Shown here: positions 36,585 to 54,885 of the stretch, one piece after another
How the letters are laid out: each line of letters opens with the position of its first letter
Position numbering within the stretch: the first letter of the stretch is position 1
Source: Hyphomicrobiaceae bacterium
Lineage (GTDB): Bacteria; Pseudomonadota; Alphaproteobacteria; Rhizobiales; Xanthobacteraceae
DNA: 64,000 bases
Reading direction: 5' to 3'
Assembly (NCBI GenBank): GCA_021324465.1
Contig: JAJPJB010000071.1
Location: forward strand, 1 to 64,000
Position numbers and translations under genes: made by a program
Notes under the pieces: model-generated
The model's database searches: none
The model's input: only the letters and a program-made list of their open reading frames with translations
What the model was told of the DNA's origin: nothing

Positions 36585-36802
36585 TCGGCGCCCCCGGCTT
36601 TTGGTAAACAAAGGATTTCGGCCTGCTGGCGCCTTTTAGAATTGAAGAGCGCTGATTATTGCTGTGCGGGCACGGTGCGAAAACGTGCCACATCATGCCG
36701 AATGGTTGCCGGCTTTAACTCCAAGTCTCTGAATTGGGTAACAATCTCCTAGCAAATTCGGCCTAGAAGCTTGGCGTGGAGCCAAGCGCCAGGTCTGTGC
36801 CC

Positions 36803-38449
36803 ATGCCTACGACCATTTCTACGACCCTGTTTGCCATTCTTCGCGACAAATTCGGCAAGACACGTGTTCAGACCGGACCGGTACCGGGTCTCAACCGCAT
36901 TGCGGGCCTGCTCAGTGAATTCCGGCGCGATACGCGCGGCAATCTCGCGATCATCACCGCACTTGCCTGTGTTCCCATGATCGGCGCTGTGGGCTGTGTC
37001 ATCGATTATACCAATGCAAGCATGATCAAGACGAAGCTGCAGGCGGCTGCGGATGCAGCGACGCTTGCCACCGTCTCGGTCAGTTCGCCCGTCGTTGCCG
37101 CGGCCAAGCAGATGAGCGGCAACGGCGCGGTTTCGGGCGGATCGACCTATGCCACCGGCTTCTTCAACGCCAATTTGAGCCAGGCGCCGGAGAATACGGG
37201 CTATACGAGCCTGTCACCGAGCGCGACGGTCACAAAAAACGGCATGAAGCTTACCGCGACCGTTTCTTTCACGGCGCAGGTCCCGACCACGTTCATGGGT
37301 ATCATGGGCTTTAAGAACGTGGCGGTGTCGGGCACGTCGACGGCCAGCTATACGCTCGCCACTTACATCGACTTTTATTTGGCGCTCGACGTTTCGGGAT
37401 CGATGGGCATGCCCTCGACCTCCTCCGAGCAGTCGCGGCTGATGAGCGTCAACCCCGACAATTTCGGCAATTATCCGAGCGGCTGCACGTTCGCCTGCCA
37501 CTTCAAGGCACAGGGCGCGTGTAGTCAGAGCAATCAAGGCCAGACCTACGCGATCAACAATCCGCAGCCCGGGCAGCGCATGCCCAACAATCAGAGCTCG
37601 TATATTCCAAATCCCAGCCCCGGCGGCTATTGCCAGGGCTATACGATTTCGCGGCTGGGCACGACGACCCAGGTCATTAACGGGAAATCGGTCACGGTCG
37701 TGAACTGGGCCGCCAATCCGGGCGTGAGCTCCTGTTCGACGCCCGGCACCAACGCGTGCATCCAGTTGCGCCTCGATGCGGTCGGCTATGCAGTGACCCA
37801 ATTGCTGACGACCGCGGCCAACACCGAGGCGCAGACGGGAATCGCCAACCAATACCGGGTCGGGCTCTATCCGTTCATTCGCTATCTCTACGCCTATTAT
37901 CCGCTGACCACCAACCTGACATCGACTGGCTCGGGATCCATCAGCAACGCCGCCGCGCAGCTCGCCACGTTGCTGGACACCGGACAGAATTCCTCGCTCG
38001 GATCGGGCGGCACGCATTTCGAAAACGCCTTTACCGACTTGAACAATATCATCACCTCGGTTGGCACGGGCACCAGCCCGACCAACACGCTGCCCTATGT
38101 GTTTCTGGTGACCGACGGCTCGCAGGACAATCAAACCTATTGGAACGGCTCGTGGTCGGGCAGCAACCACGCCACGACGATCGATCCCACATACTGCACG
38201 ACGCTAAAAAATCGCGGGATCACGATCGCGGTCCTCTACATTCCTTACGTCAACATCAATCCGGTGAACTCAAGCTTCGCCAATGACGAGGACGATTACG
38301 CCAACTGGAACATTCCGAATATTCCCGGTGCCCTGCAGCAATGTGCTTCGCCGAACTTCTTCTATACGGCAAGCACGCCGACCGACATCAATAACGCGCT
38401 GAACGAGATGTTCCAGCAGGCGATCAGCACCGCGCATATCACAAACTAG
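36803..38449 (+). CDS. TadG-like protein with von Willebrand A domain
   Basis: The 548-residue protein (ATG 36803; an in-frame GTG at 36776 is possible) has an N-terminal TadE/TadG-type membrane anchor, RRDTRGNLAIITALACVPMI followed by GAVGCVIDYTNA, and then an extracytoplasmic part. A VWA domain starts at IDFYLALDVSGSMG, whose DxSxS motif is the metal-ion-dependent adhesion site; it is interrupted by a long insertion with cysteines and Asn/Pro/Gly-rich sequence before the later VWA strands (YVFLVTDGSQDNQ). The expected role is in Flp/Tad pilus assembly or adhesion. Two TadE-type genes lie on the opposite strand nearby, but the rest of a tad locus is not in the window. Confidence 0.88.
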   Translation: MPTTISTTLFAILRDKFGKTRVQTGPVPGLNRIAGLLSEFRRDTRGNLAIITALACVPMIGAVGCVIDYTNASMIKTKLQAAADAATLATVSVSSPVVAAAKQMSGNGAVSGGSTYATGFFNANLSQAPENTGYTSLSPSATVTKNGMKLTATVSFTAQVPTTFMGIMGFKNVAVSGTSTASYTLATYIDFYLALDVSGSMGMPSTSSEQSRLMSVNPDNFGNYPSGCTFACHFKAQGACSQSNQGQTYAINNPQPGQRMPNNQSSYIPNPSPGGYCQGYTISRLGTTTQVINGKSVTVVNWAANPGVSSCSTPGTNACIQLRLDAVGYAVTQLLTTAANTEAQTGIANQYRVGLYPFIRYLYAYYPLTTNLTSTGSGSISNAAAQLATLLDTGQNSSLGSGGTHFENAFTDLNNIITSVGTGTSPTNTLPYVFLVTDGSQDNQTYWNGSWSGSNHATTIDPTYCTTLKNRGITIAVLYIPYVNINPVNSSFANDEDDYANWNIPNIPGALQQCASPNFFYTASTPTDINNALNEMFQQAISTAHITN

Positions 38450-48095: not shown

Positions 48096-48671
48096 CTAGC
48101 CCGCCGGATTGGCGTGCGCCCCCTTATCCGGCGCGCCGTTGATCTTGGGAGCGCTGTCCGGCGCGAGGTGGCTCGGCACCTGGCTCGGCTTTTGCGCCTG
48201 TACCGCAGGCCGGGCCAGCGGCATACGGGGAGTCTCGGTCGCCGTGTCGTCGCGTCGCGAGGAGCCCTCGAAGCGGGCGTTCTCCTCGATCGACAGCGAG
48301 CGATGGAAAATATCGCCTTCGACGGCGGCGGTGCCGTTCAGCTTGACCCGGCTCGCACGGATCGTGCCTTTGACCCGGCCGCCGACGGTCAGGTCGTCGG
48401 CGACAATGTCGCCCTCGACATCGGCGCCTTCGGCGACCAGAACCGTCGAAGCGTGCAGCTCGCCCTCGATGCGGCCAAAAATCTGGACGGTGCCCTGGCC
48501 GGAAATCTTGCCGACAACCGTCATGCCGGCGCTAATTGAAGATACCTCGTCGCTCGCCTTTGCCGATGATGATTGCAGCGCCGACGACTGCGCCGCCAAG
48601 CGCTGAAATTGCTGCACCGGTGCGGGAACGCGTTCGCCCTCGGGCGTGCCGTCTTTGGTCTTTCCGAACAT
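48096..48671 (-). CDS. Bactofilin family cytoskeletal protein
   Basis: This 191-residue protein starts at ATG 48671, which has AAGGAG seven bases upstream. Residues about 50-150 form the bactofilin right-handed beta-helix: ISAGMTVVGKISGQGTVQIF, GRIEGELHASTVLVAEGADV, EGDIVADDLTVGGRVKGTIR and a continuing AAVEGDIFHRSLSIEENARF. Flanking N- and C-terminal tails are Pro/Ala-rich and disordered, as in other bactofilins. Such proteins polymerise without nucleotide and organise cell-wall enzymes. Only 42 bases separate it from the upstream racemase-like fusion on the same strand, so both are probably co-transcribed. Confidence 0.95.
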   Translation of the reverse strand: MFGKTKDGTPEGERVPAPVQQFQRLAAQSSALQSSSAKASDEVSSISAGMTVVGKISGQGTVQIFGRIEGELHASTVLVAEGADVEGDIVADDLTVGGRVKGTIRASRVKLNGTAAVEGDIFHRSLSIEENARFEGSSRRDDTATETPRMPLARPAVQAQKPSQVPSHLAPDSAPKINGAPDKGAHANPAG

Positions 48672-48713: not shown

Positions 48714-50087
48714 TCAGATCGCGTAATAGATGCGATGAAACCGCTGTCCGAGGCCGGTCAGAATTTCGCGTCCGGTCGATTTGACCGCCGCTGCCAGGTC
48801 GTCGATGCCGATTTCGCTGTCCGCCTGCCTGCCGATCAGCGTCGCCGTCTCGCCGCAGCGCACCAGGGCCGGGTCGGGCAGATCGGAGACGTCGACTGCC
48901 GTGAGGTCCAGCGCCGGCCGGCCGAGCACCGGACAGCGGCGGCCGCCGATAATCACGAGCGGCTTATAGTCGGCCGAACCGCTGCAGCGCGGATAGCCGT
49001 CGGCATGGCCGACCGAGATCAAGGCGACGCGGCTGCGCCGCTTTGCAGGCAGGCAGGCCGTATCAGCAATGGTTTCGCCCGGCGCCAGGTCGCGGACTTG
49101 CACAATGCGCGCCCGCAAATCGATAACCGGCTGCATCGGATTAGGCTTGCCGGGCGTCGGATTGACGCCGTAGAGCGCCTCGCCTGTACGGACGAGCTCA
49201 AAATGTGTTTTGGGATCGAGGAAGATGGCGGGCGACGTAGCGAGTGAGGCGGGCACGCCTTCATACAGCCGGCGCAGATCGCGAAACAGGCTGAGCTGGC
49301 GTGCATTGAGTGGATGGTCCGGCCGATCGGCGTGATCGAGCCGGCTCATCAGCAACGAGATGCCGTGATCGAGGCCGGTCAGCCGCTGCGCGAAGACAGC
49401 CGCCTCCTCCGGCGACAGGCCGAGCCGGCTTTCGCCGGTATCGACGTTGAGCGCACAGCCGCCGCTCCATCGCCGTTCCGTGACGAAGACGTCCCACTCG
49501 GCCATTTCGATTGCGCTGTTGATGACCGGTCGCGCATTGATCTCGGCGAAGGACGGCCCGGTTCCGGAATAAAATCCGTTCAGCACGTAGATCGTGGCGT
49601 TCGGCGCCAGGGCGCGGACGCGTCGGGCTTCGGGAATGTTCGAGACAAAGAAGGTCTTGCAGCCGGATTTGGCCAACGCGCCGGCGACCGGCTCGATGCC
49701 GCAGCCATAGGCATTGCCCCTGATTACTGCGGCACACTCGGCCTCGCTGCTCCTGGCCATGGCTTCCCAATTGGCCGCCAGCGCCGACAAGTTGAACTTC
49801 AGGATGCCGCAGGCTTCGCCTTCCGCCGGTCCTTCGACGGCGACATAGGCCGCGAGGCCCTTATTATTGACGATGAGCCGGCCGCCTTTATTGATGATTT
49901 TTCCGTCGACCGAGCCCTCGACGACGACCTTGGCGCCGGACTCGATGGTCAGGCTGCCGAGAAGATTGCCACGGACATGCAGCGTGCAATTCTTCTGCAC
50001 GATCGTGTCGTTGACGATCGAGCCGTGAACGTCCGACGAGGCGCTGATCAGCAGCGGCCCGTCTTCGGCCTTCTGTGCTGCGAGCAT
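48714..50087 (-). CDS. Bactofilin-like domain fused to a degenerate alanine racemase
   Basis: The 457 residues have two parts. Residues about 10-80 are Gly/Val-periodic (CTLHVRGNLLGSLTIESGAK, VVVEGSVDGKIINKGGRLIV), a bactofilin-like beta-helix pattern. Residues about 93-457 follow the alanine racemase fold, including LNVDTGESRLG, FELVRTGEALYGVNPTPG, and VGHADGYPR. Measured against Geobacillus Alr, the PLP lysine K39 is Arg123 (VIRGNAYGCG), carbamylated K129 is Asn214, H166 is Arg249, catalytic Y265 is His361, and the SYGATY and SYRVPR segments are lost; R136 and R219 equivalents (Arg221, Arg300) remain. Racemase activity is therefore unlikely. A scaffold or PLP-independent role beside the neighbouring bactofilin is inferred. 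The first ATG at 50087 has no clear ribosome binding site. Confidence 0.88.
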   Translation of the reverse strand: MLAAQKAEDGPLLISASSDVHGSIVNDTIVQKNCTLHVRGNLLGSLTIESGAKVVVEGSVDGKIINKGGRLIVNNKGLAAYVAVEGPAEGEACGILKFNLSALAANWEAMARSSEAECAAVIRGNAYGCGIEPVAGALAKSGCKTFFVSNIPEARRVRALAPNATIYVLNGFYSGTGPSFAEINARPVINSAIEMAEWDVFVTERRWSGGCALNVDTGESRLGLSPEEAAVFAQRLTGLDHGISLLMSRLDHADRPDHPLNARQLSLFRDLRRLYEGVPASLATSPAIFLDPKTHFELVRTGEALYGVNPTPGKPNPMQPVIDLRARIVQVRDLAPGETIADTACLPAKRRSRVALISVGHADGYPRCSGSADYKPLVIIGGRRCPVLGRPALDLTAVDVSDLPDPALVRCGETATLIGRQADSEIGIDDLAAAVKSTGREILTGLGQRFHRIYYAI

Positions 50088-50335: not shown

Positions 50336-51409
50336 CTAGGCTGCTGCTTCCTTGTGGACGCCGGCGAAAGCCGGCGCAACTTCAGCCGCAAACCGCGCCA
50401 TTTCATCCTTTACCTGTTCGTGCGGCTTCATGCCGACATTGAAATAGAGAATGACTTCGTCATAGCCGGCCGCCTCGACCTTTTTCAGGATCTCGGTGAT
50501 GCGTGCCGAGGAGCCGAGCAGCACCGAATTTTCTGTTAGATCCTCGGGCTTTACCTTCTGCAGCCGCTCGACCATGTCGATGAAATAGCGATAGCTTGGC
50601 GGCGCGGTCTTCGGATCGCCCGGCAGGGCCGGGATCACGCATTCCTTATAATAGCGGATCTGCCGCGCCCGCTGCGCGTCCTCCTGCGCCTTGGTATCGG
50701 CGAAATGCGTGAAGTAGCTGCACATCATGCGGCCGGGCTCCCTGCCGAATTTGGCGCATGTCTCGCGATAGAGATCGGCGACCTGTTTCAGCCCGCCATA
50801 GCTCATGGCGGCGGCGAACGGTGCCACGATCAGACCGCAGCCCAGCCGCGCGGCGAGCTCGATCGAGGGCTTGGAGAACGAGCCGACATAGGTCGGCAGC
50901 GGCCGCTGGATCGGCTTTGGCGTGATGCGCACGTCGTCGAACGAATAATATTTCCCGTGATGCGAGATACGCTCATCGGCCGCCCATAGCCGCCGCACCA
51001 CTTCGAGCCCTTCTTCGAAAATGCCTTGGTTCTCCTCGAACGAGACGTGAAAGGGCTCATATTCGCGCTTGTCGTAGCCGCGTCCGCAGGCGAAATCGAC
51101 GCGCCCGCCGGAGAGCAGGTCAAGCGTCGCCCATTGTTCGGCTACCCGGATCGGATGATGCAGCGGCAGCACCGTGACCGCCGGCGCCAGCCGAATGCGC
51201 GTGGTTTTCGCGGCCACATGGGCGAGCACCATGTCCGGGCAGGATAAGACGCCCAGCGAATTGAAATGATGCTCGCCGATCCAGGCCGAATGCATGCCGA
51301 GCCTGTCGGCCAGCACGGCTTCGGCGGTGATGTCGGCGACGAACTGGTTCGAGGAGCGCGGATTGTTCTCGTAATGATTGTCGCTCAGCGTGAAATAGCC
51401 GAAGTGCAT
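50336..51409 (-). CDS. LLM-class flavin-dependent oxidoreductase (first)
   Basis: This bacterial-luciferase-like monooxygenase has 357 residues from ATG 51409, where GGAGGAG lies six bases upstream. HFGYFTLSDNHYENNPRSSN opens the protein; SAWIGEHHFNSLGVLSCPDM and PAVTVLPLHHPIRVAEQWAT carry the conserved His/Glu and core strand motifs; and LDLLSGGRVDFACGRGYDKR is the flavin-phosphate loop. It should use FMNH2 from a separate reductase, which is not in the immediate neighbourhood. It is transcribed divergently from a MarR regulator with a palindrome between them, which suggests regulation by that protein. Confidence 0.92.
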   Translation of the reverse strand: MHFGYFTLSDNHYENNPRSSNQFVADITAEAVLADRLGMHSAWIGEHHFNSLGVLSCPDMVLAHVAAKTTRIRLAPAVTVLPLHHPIRVAEQWATLDLLSGGRVDFACGRGYDKREYEPFHVSFEENQGIFEEGLEVVRRLWAADERISHHGKYYSFDDVRITPKPIQRPLPTYVGSFSKPSIELAARLGCGLIVAPFAAAMSYGGLKQVADLYRETCAKFGREPGRMMCSYFTHFADTKAQEDAQRARQIRYYKECVIPALPGDPKTAPPSYRYFIDMVERLQKVKPEDLTENSVLLGSSARITEILKKVEAAGYDEVILYFNVGMKPHEQVKDEMARFAAEVAPAFAGVHKEAAA

Positions 51410-51495
51410 GGGGTTCTCCTCCGCGAGCCGATTATCGCTTTTCGGCGCAGGCGCGATCTTACATCGCTGCGCTCGGTTGCGCATCATAATTGATT

Positions 51496-53760: not shown

Positions 53761-54885
53761 TCAAAACGGCTCAAAATTCCGCAGCGCCGGGATTACCTGT
53801 TCCCCGAACAGCCGGATTGAGCGCAACAGCGCATCCTCCGGCAGGTCGGCGAAGTTGAATTCGCCGAGAAAAGCGTTGAACAGGCCGGCCTGGGCAGCGG
53901 CGCGGATTTTTTCTGTCACCGTTTGCGGGGAGCCGATGAAGATAAGTTCGTTCTTGTAAAGATAATCGGGATCGAACAGGTTCTGCATGATTTGGGACGC
54001 ACCCGGCTCGCCGCGGCCGACGAACATCTTGGCGTGTTCTTTGGCACGCTGCTCAAAGGTCTCGCCCGGCTTTGGCGGCGGCAAGAACCCCTCATACGCG
54101 CGACTGGCGCGAAGCAGCGCGACATCGAGCGCCTTTTCATCCGTCTCATCCACATAGACAACCGTGCAATAGGCGATGCTCGGCCTGCGCGGATGGCCGG
54201 CCGCCTTCCAGTCGGCCAGAAATTTGCGATAGCGCGGCGCCGCGTCGGCGCGCGGATACACCAGAAAGTAGCCGGGATTGATGCCGTGCCGCGCGCAAAA
54301 TTCGAGGGTCTGCGGGTCGCGGCTCATCATCCATAGCGGCGGATGCGGGCGCTGCACCGGCGGGACGGCGATCAGCGCCTGCTCGGTGTGAAACTCATGG
54401 CCGTGAAACGAGAACGGCTGCGCCTCGCCGAAGGCCGCGCGCAAGTATGCGACGAATTCCAGCGTCGGCGACTTGCGTTGCCCGTAATCCAGCCCGAAGG
54501 GCCGGAAATAATCGGCATTGATGCCGGGCACCAGGCCAAGCTCCATGCGCCCGCCCAGCATCTGGTCGACAATGGCGATCTCCTCGGCGAGCCGCAGCGG
54601 ATGATAGAGCGGCACGATGTAACCCATCGGCCCGATGCGCAACCGCTTGGTGCGCGCGCCGGCGCCGACCGCATAGAGGCTCGGCGACGACATCCAGCTT
54701 TCGTCCGGCCGGAAATGATGCTCGACGCAGAACGAATGATCGAAACCGAGCTCATCGCACAATTGCAATTCGCGCCAGAGCTGCTCATAGCGCTGATGCG
54801 GCGTCATGCCGGGCTTGGCCCAGATATGGGAGAAATGCGCAAACTTCATGGGCGCACCAACCGTGTCATGGGCATCATCGGCCAT
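53761..54885 (-). CDS. LLM-class flavin-dependent oxidoreductase (second)
   Basis: This 374-residue protein is another bacterial-luciferase-like enzyme but only distantly similar to the first one. The start at 54885 is used here; ATG 54849 (MKFAHFSHIWAKPG) is an alternative. FDHSFCVEHHFRPDESWMSS, GPMGYIVPLYHPLRLAEEIA and MLGGRMELGLVPGINADYF are typical conserved segments; VPPVQRPHPPLWMMSRDPQT is the flavin-site strand. Substrate unknown. It is divergent from the TDT transporter and convergent with the MFS gene; the pair of LLM enzymes with MarR and MFS suggests a catabolic module. Confidence 0.92.
   Translation of the reverse strand: MADDAHDTVGAPMKFAHFSHIWAKPGMTPHQRYEQLWRELQLCDELGFDHSFCVEHHFRPDESWMSSPSLYAVGAGARTKRLRIGPMGYIVPLYHPLRLAEEIAIVDQMLGGRMELGLVPGINADYFRPFGLDYGQRKSPTLEFVAYLRAAFGEAQPFSFHGHEFHTEQALIAVPPVQRPHPPLWMMSRDPQTLEFCARHGINPGYFLVYPRADAAPRYRKFLADWKAAGHPRRPSIAYCTVVYVDETDEKALDVALLRASRAYEGFLPPPKPGETFEQRAKEHAKMFVGRGEPGASQIMQNLFDPDYLYKNELIFIGSPQTVTEKIRAAAQAGLFNAFLGEFNFADLPEDALLRSIRLFGEQVIPALRNFEPF

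Follow-up and report, generated by a model that had tools for sequence, protein, structure and literature searches.

A racemase-derived candidate pseudoenzyme with a predicted β-solenoid head, paired with a bactofilin gene in Xanthobacteraceae

A gene in a 64,000-nucleotide stretch of a Hyphomicrobiaceae genome (assembly GCA_021324465.1, contig JAJPJB010000071.1, positions 1 to 64,000; hereafter the window) encodes a protein with the fold of alanine racemase, an additional N-terminal domain and an arginine in place of the lysine that carries pyridoxal phosphate (PLP), and it lies beside a bactofilin gene. This locus raises the question of whether the protein is still a racemase and, if it is not, what it might do next to a bactofilin.

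Domain organization and catalytic positions of the window protein

Translation reproduced the predicted open reading frame (Table 1), and the start methionine lines up with the starts of its homologues in the alignment. The predicted alanine racemase fold was also recovered, as Pfam found both of its domains. Among solved structures, the Bartonella henselae racemase (PDB 3kw3) is closest in sequence, with an E-value of 8.1e-52; the same entry is the top Foldseek match of the full-length model, which is of middling quality with a mean pLDDT of 60. Compared to alanine racemase (Alr; TIGR00492, PF01168 plus PF00842), the protein possesses the same two domains over residues 99-454, but it has an extra N-terminal β-solenoid and replacements at K39, Tyr265, H166, Tyr284, Met312 and Tyr354. 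Its racemase domain shares 53% identity with the Alr of its own genome. An Alr domain is likewise fused to another domain in the membrane serine racemase VanT and in MurF-Alr (NF008897), both of which are active enzymes with partner domains unlike the window head; the window protein scores far below the cut-offs of the two models.

Table 1. Positions in the window of the fusion gene, its domains, its replaced active-site residues and the adjacent bactofilin gene
Feature	Coordinates	Strand	Evidence
Fusion gene, β-solenoid head and alanine-racemase-like candidate pseudoenzyme, 457 aa	48714..50087	(-)	ORF, translation, Pfam
Predicted N-terminal β-solenoid, residues 11-75	49863..50057	(-)	AlphaFold2 model and sub-threshold Pfam matches
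Alanine racemase N-terminal (barrel) domain, residues 99-310	49158..49793	(-)	PF01168, 144.8 bits, E 4.1e-42, over cut-off
Alanine racemase C-terminal domain, residues 321-454	48726..49127	(-)	PF00842, 96.7 bits, E 1e-27, over cut-off
PLP-lysine (K39) position, Arg123, codon AGG	49719..49721	(-)	Lys in 36/36 ordinary relatives
H166 position, Arg249	49341..49343	(-)	His in 36/36 ordinary relatives
Catalytic Tyr265 position, Asp342	49062..49064	(-)	Tyr in 36/36 ordinary relatives
Tyr284 (GYADG) position, His361	49005..49007	(-)	Tyr in 36/36 ordinary relatives
Met312 position, Leu393	48909..48911	(-)	Met in 36/36 ordinary relatives
Tyr354 position, Arg440	48768..48770	(-)	Tyr in 36/36 ordinary relatives
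Bactofilin gene, 191 aa from MFGK start, 42 bp downstream of fusion gene	48096..48671	(-)	PF04519, E 2.3e-23

The racemase domain was aligned with those of five fusion homologues, described below, and of 36 ordinary relatives from Xanthobacteraceae. The latter are the highest-scoring matches rather than a random sample, and many more ordinary matches exist; duplicates (L038-L041, L052, L102), copies cut by contig ends (L049-L051, L054) and short stretches (L069-L081) were left out of this set. Residues are numbered as in the Geobacillus racemase and were assigned by motif; the labels Tyr43, R136, S204, R219, G221, Met312 and Asn203 follow what we take to be the numbering of that enzyme. In alanine racemase, K39, within the motif AVVKANAYGHG (PMC3245724), is the catalytic lysine that carries PLP, and Tyr265, the catalytic tyrosine Tyr265' of PMC3245724, is the second base (PMC3245724, PMC6411801). 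The two serve as the acid-base residues and H166 tunes Tyr265, as described in PMC6411801, whereas Tyr265', Tyr284' and Tyr354 are assigned to the inner entry layer in PMC3245724.

All 36 ordinary relatives are invariant at K39, Tyr43, R136, H166, S204, R219, G221, Tyr265, Tyr284, Met312 and Tyr354. The window protein keeps the equivalents of Tyr43, R136 (Arg221), R219 (Arg300), S204 and G221, and carries other residues at the remaining positions (Table 1). The arginines at the PLP-lysine and H166 positions, the loss of the SYGATY motif and the retention of the R136 and R219 equivalents had been read correctly from the sequence of the window alone. The histidine in the GYADG motif, His361, had been taken for the lost catalytic tyrosine; the change of residue is confirmed, but the position is that of Tyr284. 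Judged by spacing, Tyr265 belongs to the GYGATW motif, 19 residues earlier, and since that position is Asp342, the catalytic tyrosine is gone despite the mis-assignment, as is Tyr284. A supposed loss of the carbamylated lysine at Asn214 was rejected, because none of the 36 ordinary relatives has a lysine there (33 have His and 3 have Gln). By contrast, the changes at Met312 and Tyr354 are two further losses beyond the earlier list. In total, 13 of the 66 residues that are invariant in ordinary racemases are changed in the window protein, compared to 0-4 of 66-70 in seven ordinary relatives treated by leave-one-out.

A family of fusions in Xanthobacteraceae

Searches for homologues with the same fusion raised the number of fusions to six, window included, all of them in Xanthobacteraceae. 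A whole-protein search of 198 family genomes gave five full-length matches, counting the window, and five fusion loci, termed L055-L059, came from a pattern-based scan of GTDB species genomes in which the head domain was the query. L055 and L057 are Xanthobacteraceae MAGs, L056 is an Alphaproteobacteria MAG (LacPavin), L058 is an Afipia sp. MAG (LacPavin) in which the C-terminus is lost at a contig end, and L059 is from Bradyrhizobium sp. LHD-71. The six genomes are all drafts, of 80-610 contigs. A full head was matched at an E-value below 1e-40 in 6 of 391 family genomes, which makes the fusion rare. Among 397 genomes drawn from the order and searched at E-values up to 1e-5, the fusion was present in the window genome alone, the other fusion genomes being outside the draw, and two further genomes had a stand-alone head-like protein. 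A full-text literature search, judged by titles and the starts of abstracts and covering few subscription journals, found no description of this fusion; bactofilin and alanine racemase are named as separate genes in PMC7186360.

Several other matches were rejected as fusions. A Rhizobium daejeonense plasmid match over residues 3-454 does not make a seventh fusion, as the annotated Alr begins only past the region that seemed to match the head. Around the Sphingobium match (L060), no racemase was seen by eye among open reading frames of at least 120 residues. The match in genome G260 sits in a 1904-residue frame, and that in G010 is weak and sits in an otherwise different frame of 278 residues, with no racemase or bactofilin within 4.5 kb. 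A Lachnospiraceae match (L061) was set aside for its weakness alone.

Alignment of the fusions revealed that the K39 column holds Arg in the window protein, L056 and L057 and Lys in L055, L058 and L059, and that the Tyr265 column holds Asp (window), Asn (L055), Phe (L056), Cys (L057), Tyr (L058) or a gap (L059). Thus one or both catalytic bases are lost in five of the six. K39 is kept in three of six fusions, Tyr265 in one of six, H166 in three of six and Tyr354 in two of five, L058 being cut before it; each is present in all 36 ordinary relatives. Where K39 is lost, the replacement is Arg in all three cases (codons AGG, AGG and CGG). The equivalents of Tyr43, Ser204, Gly221, Arg219 and Arg136, which we take to sit around the PLP site, are kept in all six. 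Changes at ordinary-invariant residues number 7-14 of 66 in the other fusions, with 11 in L058, which nevertheless keeps K39, H166, Tyr265, Tyr284 and Met312. The original prediction had treated a homologous fusion with both K39 and Y265 as evidence against a pseudoenzyme; one fusion in six, L058, is of this kind, which counts against that reading for the fusion class as a whole and leaves the window protein unaffected. In a separate column, that of window residue 99 in the LTVDLGA motif, all 36 ordinary racemases have Asp and five of the six fusions (all but L058) have Asn, which is possibly a mark of the change of role.

The curated alanine racemase model TIGR00492 (cut-off 168) gives a score of 161.5 for the window protein and 222.3 for the intact Alr of the same genome. 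All five other fusions reach the cut-off, with scores of 168.1-209.3, the best being L056 (209.3), which has Arg and Phe at the two bases. Since changed fusions reach it, the score cannot separate dead from alive enzymes, and the missed cut-off was rejected as a sign of death. A second model, NF000792, is missed by the window protein and by the intact Alr of its genome alike.

That intact alr gene, whose existence elsewhere in the genome had been suggested as a check, was found between dnaB and radA (L001), and its product keeps K39, Tyr265, H166, Tyr284, Met312 and Tyr354. A second, ordinary racemase is present in four of the six fusion genomes (window, G049, G011 and G075). For the other two, a true absence was rejected: G161 yielded no dnaB, and its radA begins at the edge of a contig; G293 yielded no radA, and a contig edge truncates its dnaB. 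With these flanking genes missing or cut, the alr locus probably falls into assembly gaps.

Phylogenetic analysis with four outgroup racemases grouped the six fusions into one clade (support 100/100) inside the ordinary alr genes; one ordinary row branches outside with support of 98/87, and a further two do so with 82/90. As three of these outgroups sit on branches flagged as long (0.95-1.2), the placement of the fusions within the alr genes of the family is approximate. On the best tree, the fusions are apparently nested within these genes, and the fusion gene would have arisen by duplication of the housekeeping alr in Xanthobacteraceae. The window protein and L055 are sisters (98/95), yet they differ at K39, which indicates repeated losses; the replacement of Tyr265 by Asp, Asn, Phe, Cys or a gap also points to independent losses. 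Because L058 keeps both bases, the fusion seems to have come first and the catalytic decay later. As far as the alignment and tree go, the fusion is not a pseudoenzyme by birth; each lineage has had losses of its own, and the window protein ranks with the most altered copies.

None of the six fusion coding sequences, of which L058 is cut at the end, contains a stop codon, whereas roughly 32 would be expected under neutrality by a rough estimate from end-branch lengths. Over the racemase domain, 15 fusion pairs have pairwise dN/dS (NG86) values of 0.12-0.33 and six ordinary pairs have values of 0.20-0.48, with synonymous sites partly saturated. Of the 66 ordinary-invariant residues, 41 are retained throughout the six fusions wherever the sequence covers them. 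The lack of stops together with dN/dS values in the range of working enzymes argues that this is not a dying gene. On sequence evidence, the racemase fold is under constraint and the active site is not. Of the marks of a pseudoenzyme, homology to an active enzyme family with loss of catalytic residues and retention of the gene by selection were found here.

The adjacent bactofilin and the head domain

The bactofilin gene noted beside the fusion was confirmed by Pfam, with its start chosen by comparison with the copies of the neighbours (Table 1), and it is the sole bactofilin found in the window genome. The same pairing recurs in all five assessable loci (window, L055, L056, L057 and L059), where a bactofilin above the Pfam cut-off adjoins the fusion on the same strand; L058 was not assessable and was left out of this count. 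L056 has the two genes in the opposite order, and the outer neighbours of L056 and L059, compared by eye from their translations, are unlike those of the window, so it is the fusion-bactofilin pair itself that is kept. Within the genus of the window genome, 9 of 20 genomes have a bactofilin, including all three with the fusion. Two genomes of this genus (L091, L096) carry a third type of bactofilin, next to which lies a conserved frame of some 400-450 residues; the L096 copy has no Pfam match at an E-value of 0.001. Other genes lie near the fusion as well: the window encodes luciferase-like monooxygenases (PF00296) at 50336-51487 and 53761-54885, and a similar gene was read by eye upstream of the L057 and L055 fusions. 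Farther away, the window gene at 36776-38449 has a product of 557 residues, and residues 55-98 of it give a TadE/G-like match (PF13400).

In a bactofilin tree of 17 rows, a branch with 100/100 support separates the five fusion neighbours, the two bactofilins of genome G068 and two other rows from the eight remaining rows. This tree omits L086, L088 and L094, which gave no row by the BLAST filter, the cut copies L095 and L098 and the duplicates L083 and L090. The loci L118-L120 did not enter the analysis. A bactofilin clade unique to the fusions is not claimed, its support being 66/51.

A profile of the head, run against the 391 family genomes, matched besides the fusions only the 1904-residue frame of G260 and a stand-alone protein in G068. 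The latter (L068:1480-1764, contig C195) has 95 residues and is the closest stand-alone head. Its gene is located between two Pfam-confirmed bactofilins, on the strand opposite to them, and overlaps the end of one; no racemase remnant was found within 14 kb of it. By its position, this protein is possibly a small bactofilin partner. Two more distant stand-alone head-like proteins occur in other families of the order (L111:1420-1800 and L112:1486-1818, frames of 126 and 110 residues), and the 3.2-kb stretches around them contain no bactofilin.

The window head, folded alone by AlphaFold2 from six sequences, is predicted to form a β-solenoid, with a block pLDDT of 88-91 over residues 11-70; inside the full-length model the pLDDT of the head is 66-86. 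The Pfam matches of the window head, to bactofilin, FapA, MinC_C, AIDA and an adhesive domain, are all sub-threshold. Against the bactofilin family PF04519 (cut-off 27.9) the window head scores 15.8 bits and the best of nine heads 22.9; none of the nine (six fusion and three stand-alone) reaches the cut-off and two have no match at all. Structural similarity search of the head model against the PDB using Foldseek gave nothing under an E-value of 0.001, the matches to MinC and to bactofilin 6ria having E-values of 1.1 and 2.7, and profile comparison lent no support to a relationship between the head and the neighbouring bactofilins (probability under 1%). Hence the proposed bactofilin-like N-terminal domain is a fair description of the predicted shape but stays below the Pfam bactofilin cut-off, and structure prediction yields a β-solenoid head without a confident PDB match. 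Compared to bactofilins (PF04519, such as BacA), the head is a predicted short β-solenoid, shorter than they are and below their cut-off, whereas a true bactofilin is encoded next door. We regard it as bactofilin-like in modelled shape and not as a bactofilin.

A gene pairing of this kind has a known counterpart in the BacA-LmdC unit of Hyphomonas and Rhodospirillum (PMC10945521), in which a bactofilin and a wall-related partner are likewise encoded as a two-gene unit. Hyphomonas BacA is described there as interacting with the M23 endopeptidase LmdC, the product of the adjacent gene. The partner in that unit is an active bitopic membrane M23 endopeptidase (PMC10945521), whereas the protein described here is derived from a racemase and mostly lacks the catalytic residues.

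Possible roles of the fusion protein

The best reading, to which we give about an even chance, is that the window protein is a racemase-derived pseudoenzyme working as a non-catalytic, bactofilin-associated adaptor. Duplication, fusion, bactofilin pairing, piecemeal catalytic loss and constraint on the fold are borne out at the sequence level; the adaptor role is what we infer from them. According to this proposal, a housekeeping alanine racemase gene would have been duplicated inside Xanthobacteraceae, as the best tree suggests. The copy carries a small β-solenoid head, of which stand-alone versions exist too, and forms a two-gene unit with a bactofilin. Once fused, it was released from selection for racemization but not from selection on its fold, judging by sequence, and the two catalytic bases and their helpers were lost piecemeal. 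The racemase fold is a dimer in known enzymes, and the racemase body as a dimer would pair two β-solenoid heads. Paired in this way, the heads might bind to the bactofilin filament or assemble together with it, and the racemase body might offer a partner in wall synthesis a fixed platform or cross-link the filament with a set geometry. Antizyme inhibitor offers a parallel: it is also a paralogue of a PLP enzyme that serves as a binding protein, and it shares its fold type with the window racemase and lacks PLP, but it is eukaryotic, regulates polyamine synthesis and has no cytoskeletal link. It is homologous to ornithine decarboxylase and binds antizyme (PMC3170320).

Other readings keep some activity or some ligand in the racemase body. 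That the protein is an ordinary, active alanine racemase with tolerated substitutions seems highly improbable: L058 keeps both bases, Tyr284, Met312 and H166, and the other fusions reach the curated alr cut-off, but the window protein has other residues at both acid-base positions. Some members (L058, L055 and L059) may, from their residues, still bind PLP or act. For those with K39 and without Tyr265, L055 and L059, one could think of another PLP reaction such as retro-aldol cleavage, as the Y265A mutant of the Geobacillus racemase gains aldolase activity according to PMC6411801. We consider this very unlikely, as the window protein, L056 and L057 have Arg for the PLP lysine and should form no internal aldimine, and the helper residues vary between members. 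A ligand sensor, in which PLP, alanine, D-alanine or another small anion would still occupy the emptied pocket unreacted and the signal would pass to the bactofilin filament, would fit the conserved residues around the PLP site in all six fusions and the positive charge of the Arg that always replaces the lost lysine. The pocket is not preserved as a unit, however, since Tyr354 at its entry is lost in three of five, Asn203 varies and the window protein has neither Tyr284 nor Met312, and we hold a sensor to be unlikely.

Each active site of the racemase borrows Tyr265 from the partner subunit, so the fusion protein might instead regulate the ordinary enzyme, with mixed dimers switching off the genuine Alr or placing it at the filament. 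The 53% identity to the Alr of its own genome is consistent with this, as is the ordinary racemase in four of six fusion genomes, with the alr flanks missing or cut at contig ends in the other two, and dead-paralogue partners are known elsewhere, such as in deoxyhypusine synthase (PMC3663545). On the other hand, the two racemase genes of the window genome are on different contigs, and we judge such regulation quite improbable. A decaying pseudogene or a sequencing error, in which a duplicated racemase is simply being lost, would agree with losses that accumulate differently in each lineage and with the sparse occurrence of the fusion in the family. The uninterrupted frames and the dN/dS values of working enzymes speak against it, and the recurrence of the same kind of loss across separate assemblies upholds the original argument against sequencing error, leaving this explanation scarcely credible. 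Altogether, the protein probably serves in structure or sensing and not in catalysis.

Beyond the preferred non-catalytic adaptor, a more ambitious and rather unlikely possibility is that a dead racemase bound to the cytoskeleton couples D-alanine supply to the site of wall growth, either by sensing alanine or PLP status or by trapping working Alr at bactofilin filaments in mixed dimers. If this were true, stepwise changes would have turned a duplicated housekeeping enzyme into a pseudoenzyme checkpoint, and L058 would be an intermediate that has both bases. As the fusions pass or nearly pass the curated alr cut-off, automatic annotation would probably name them plain alanine racemases, which would mislead counts of D-alanine enzymes. 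The fusions form a small natural series, from one with both bases to others without one or both, in which an essential wall enzyme can be traced as it turns non-catalytic, and they present a candidate new class of bactofilin partner besides the M23 peptidases.
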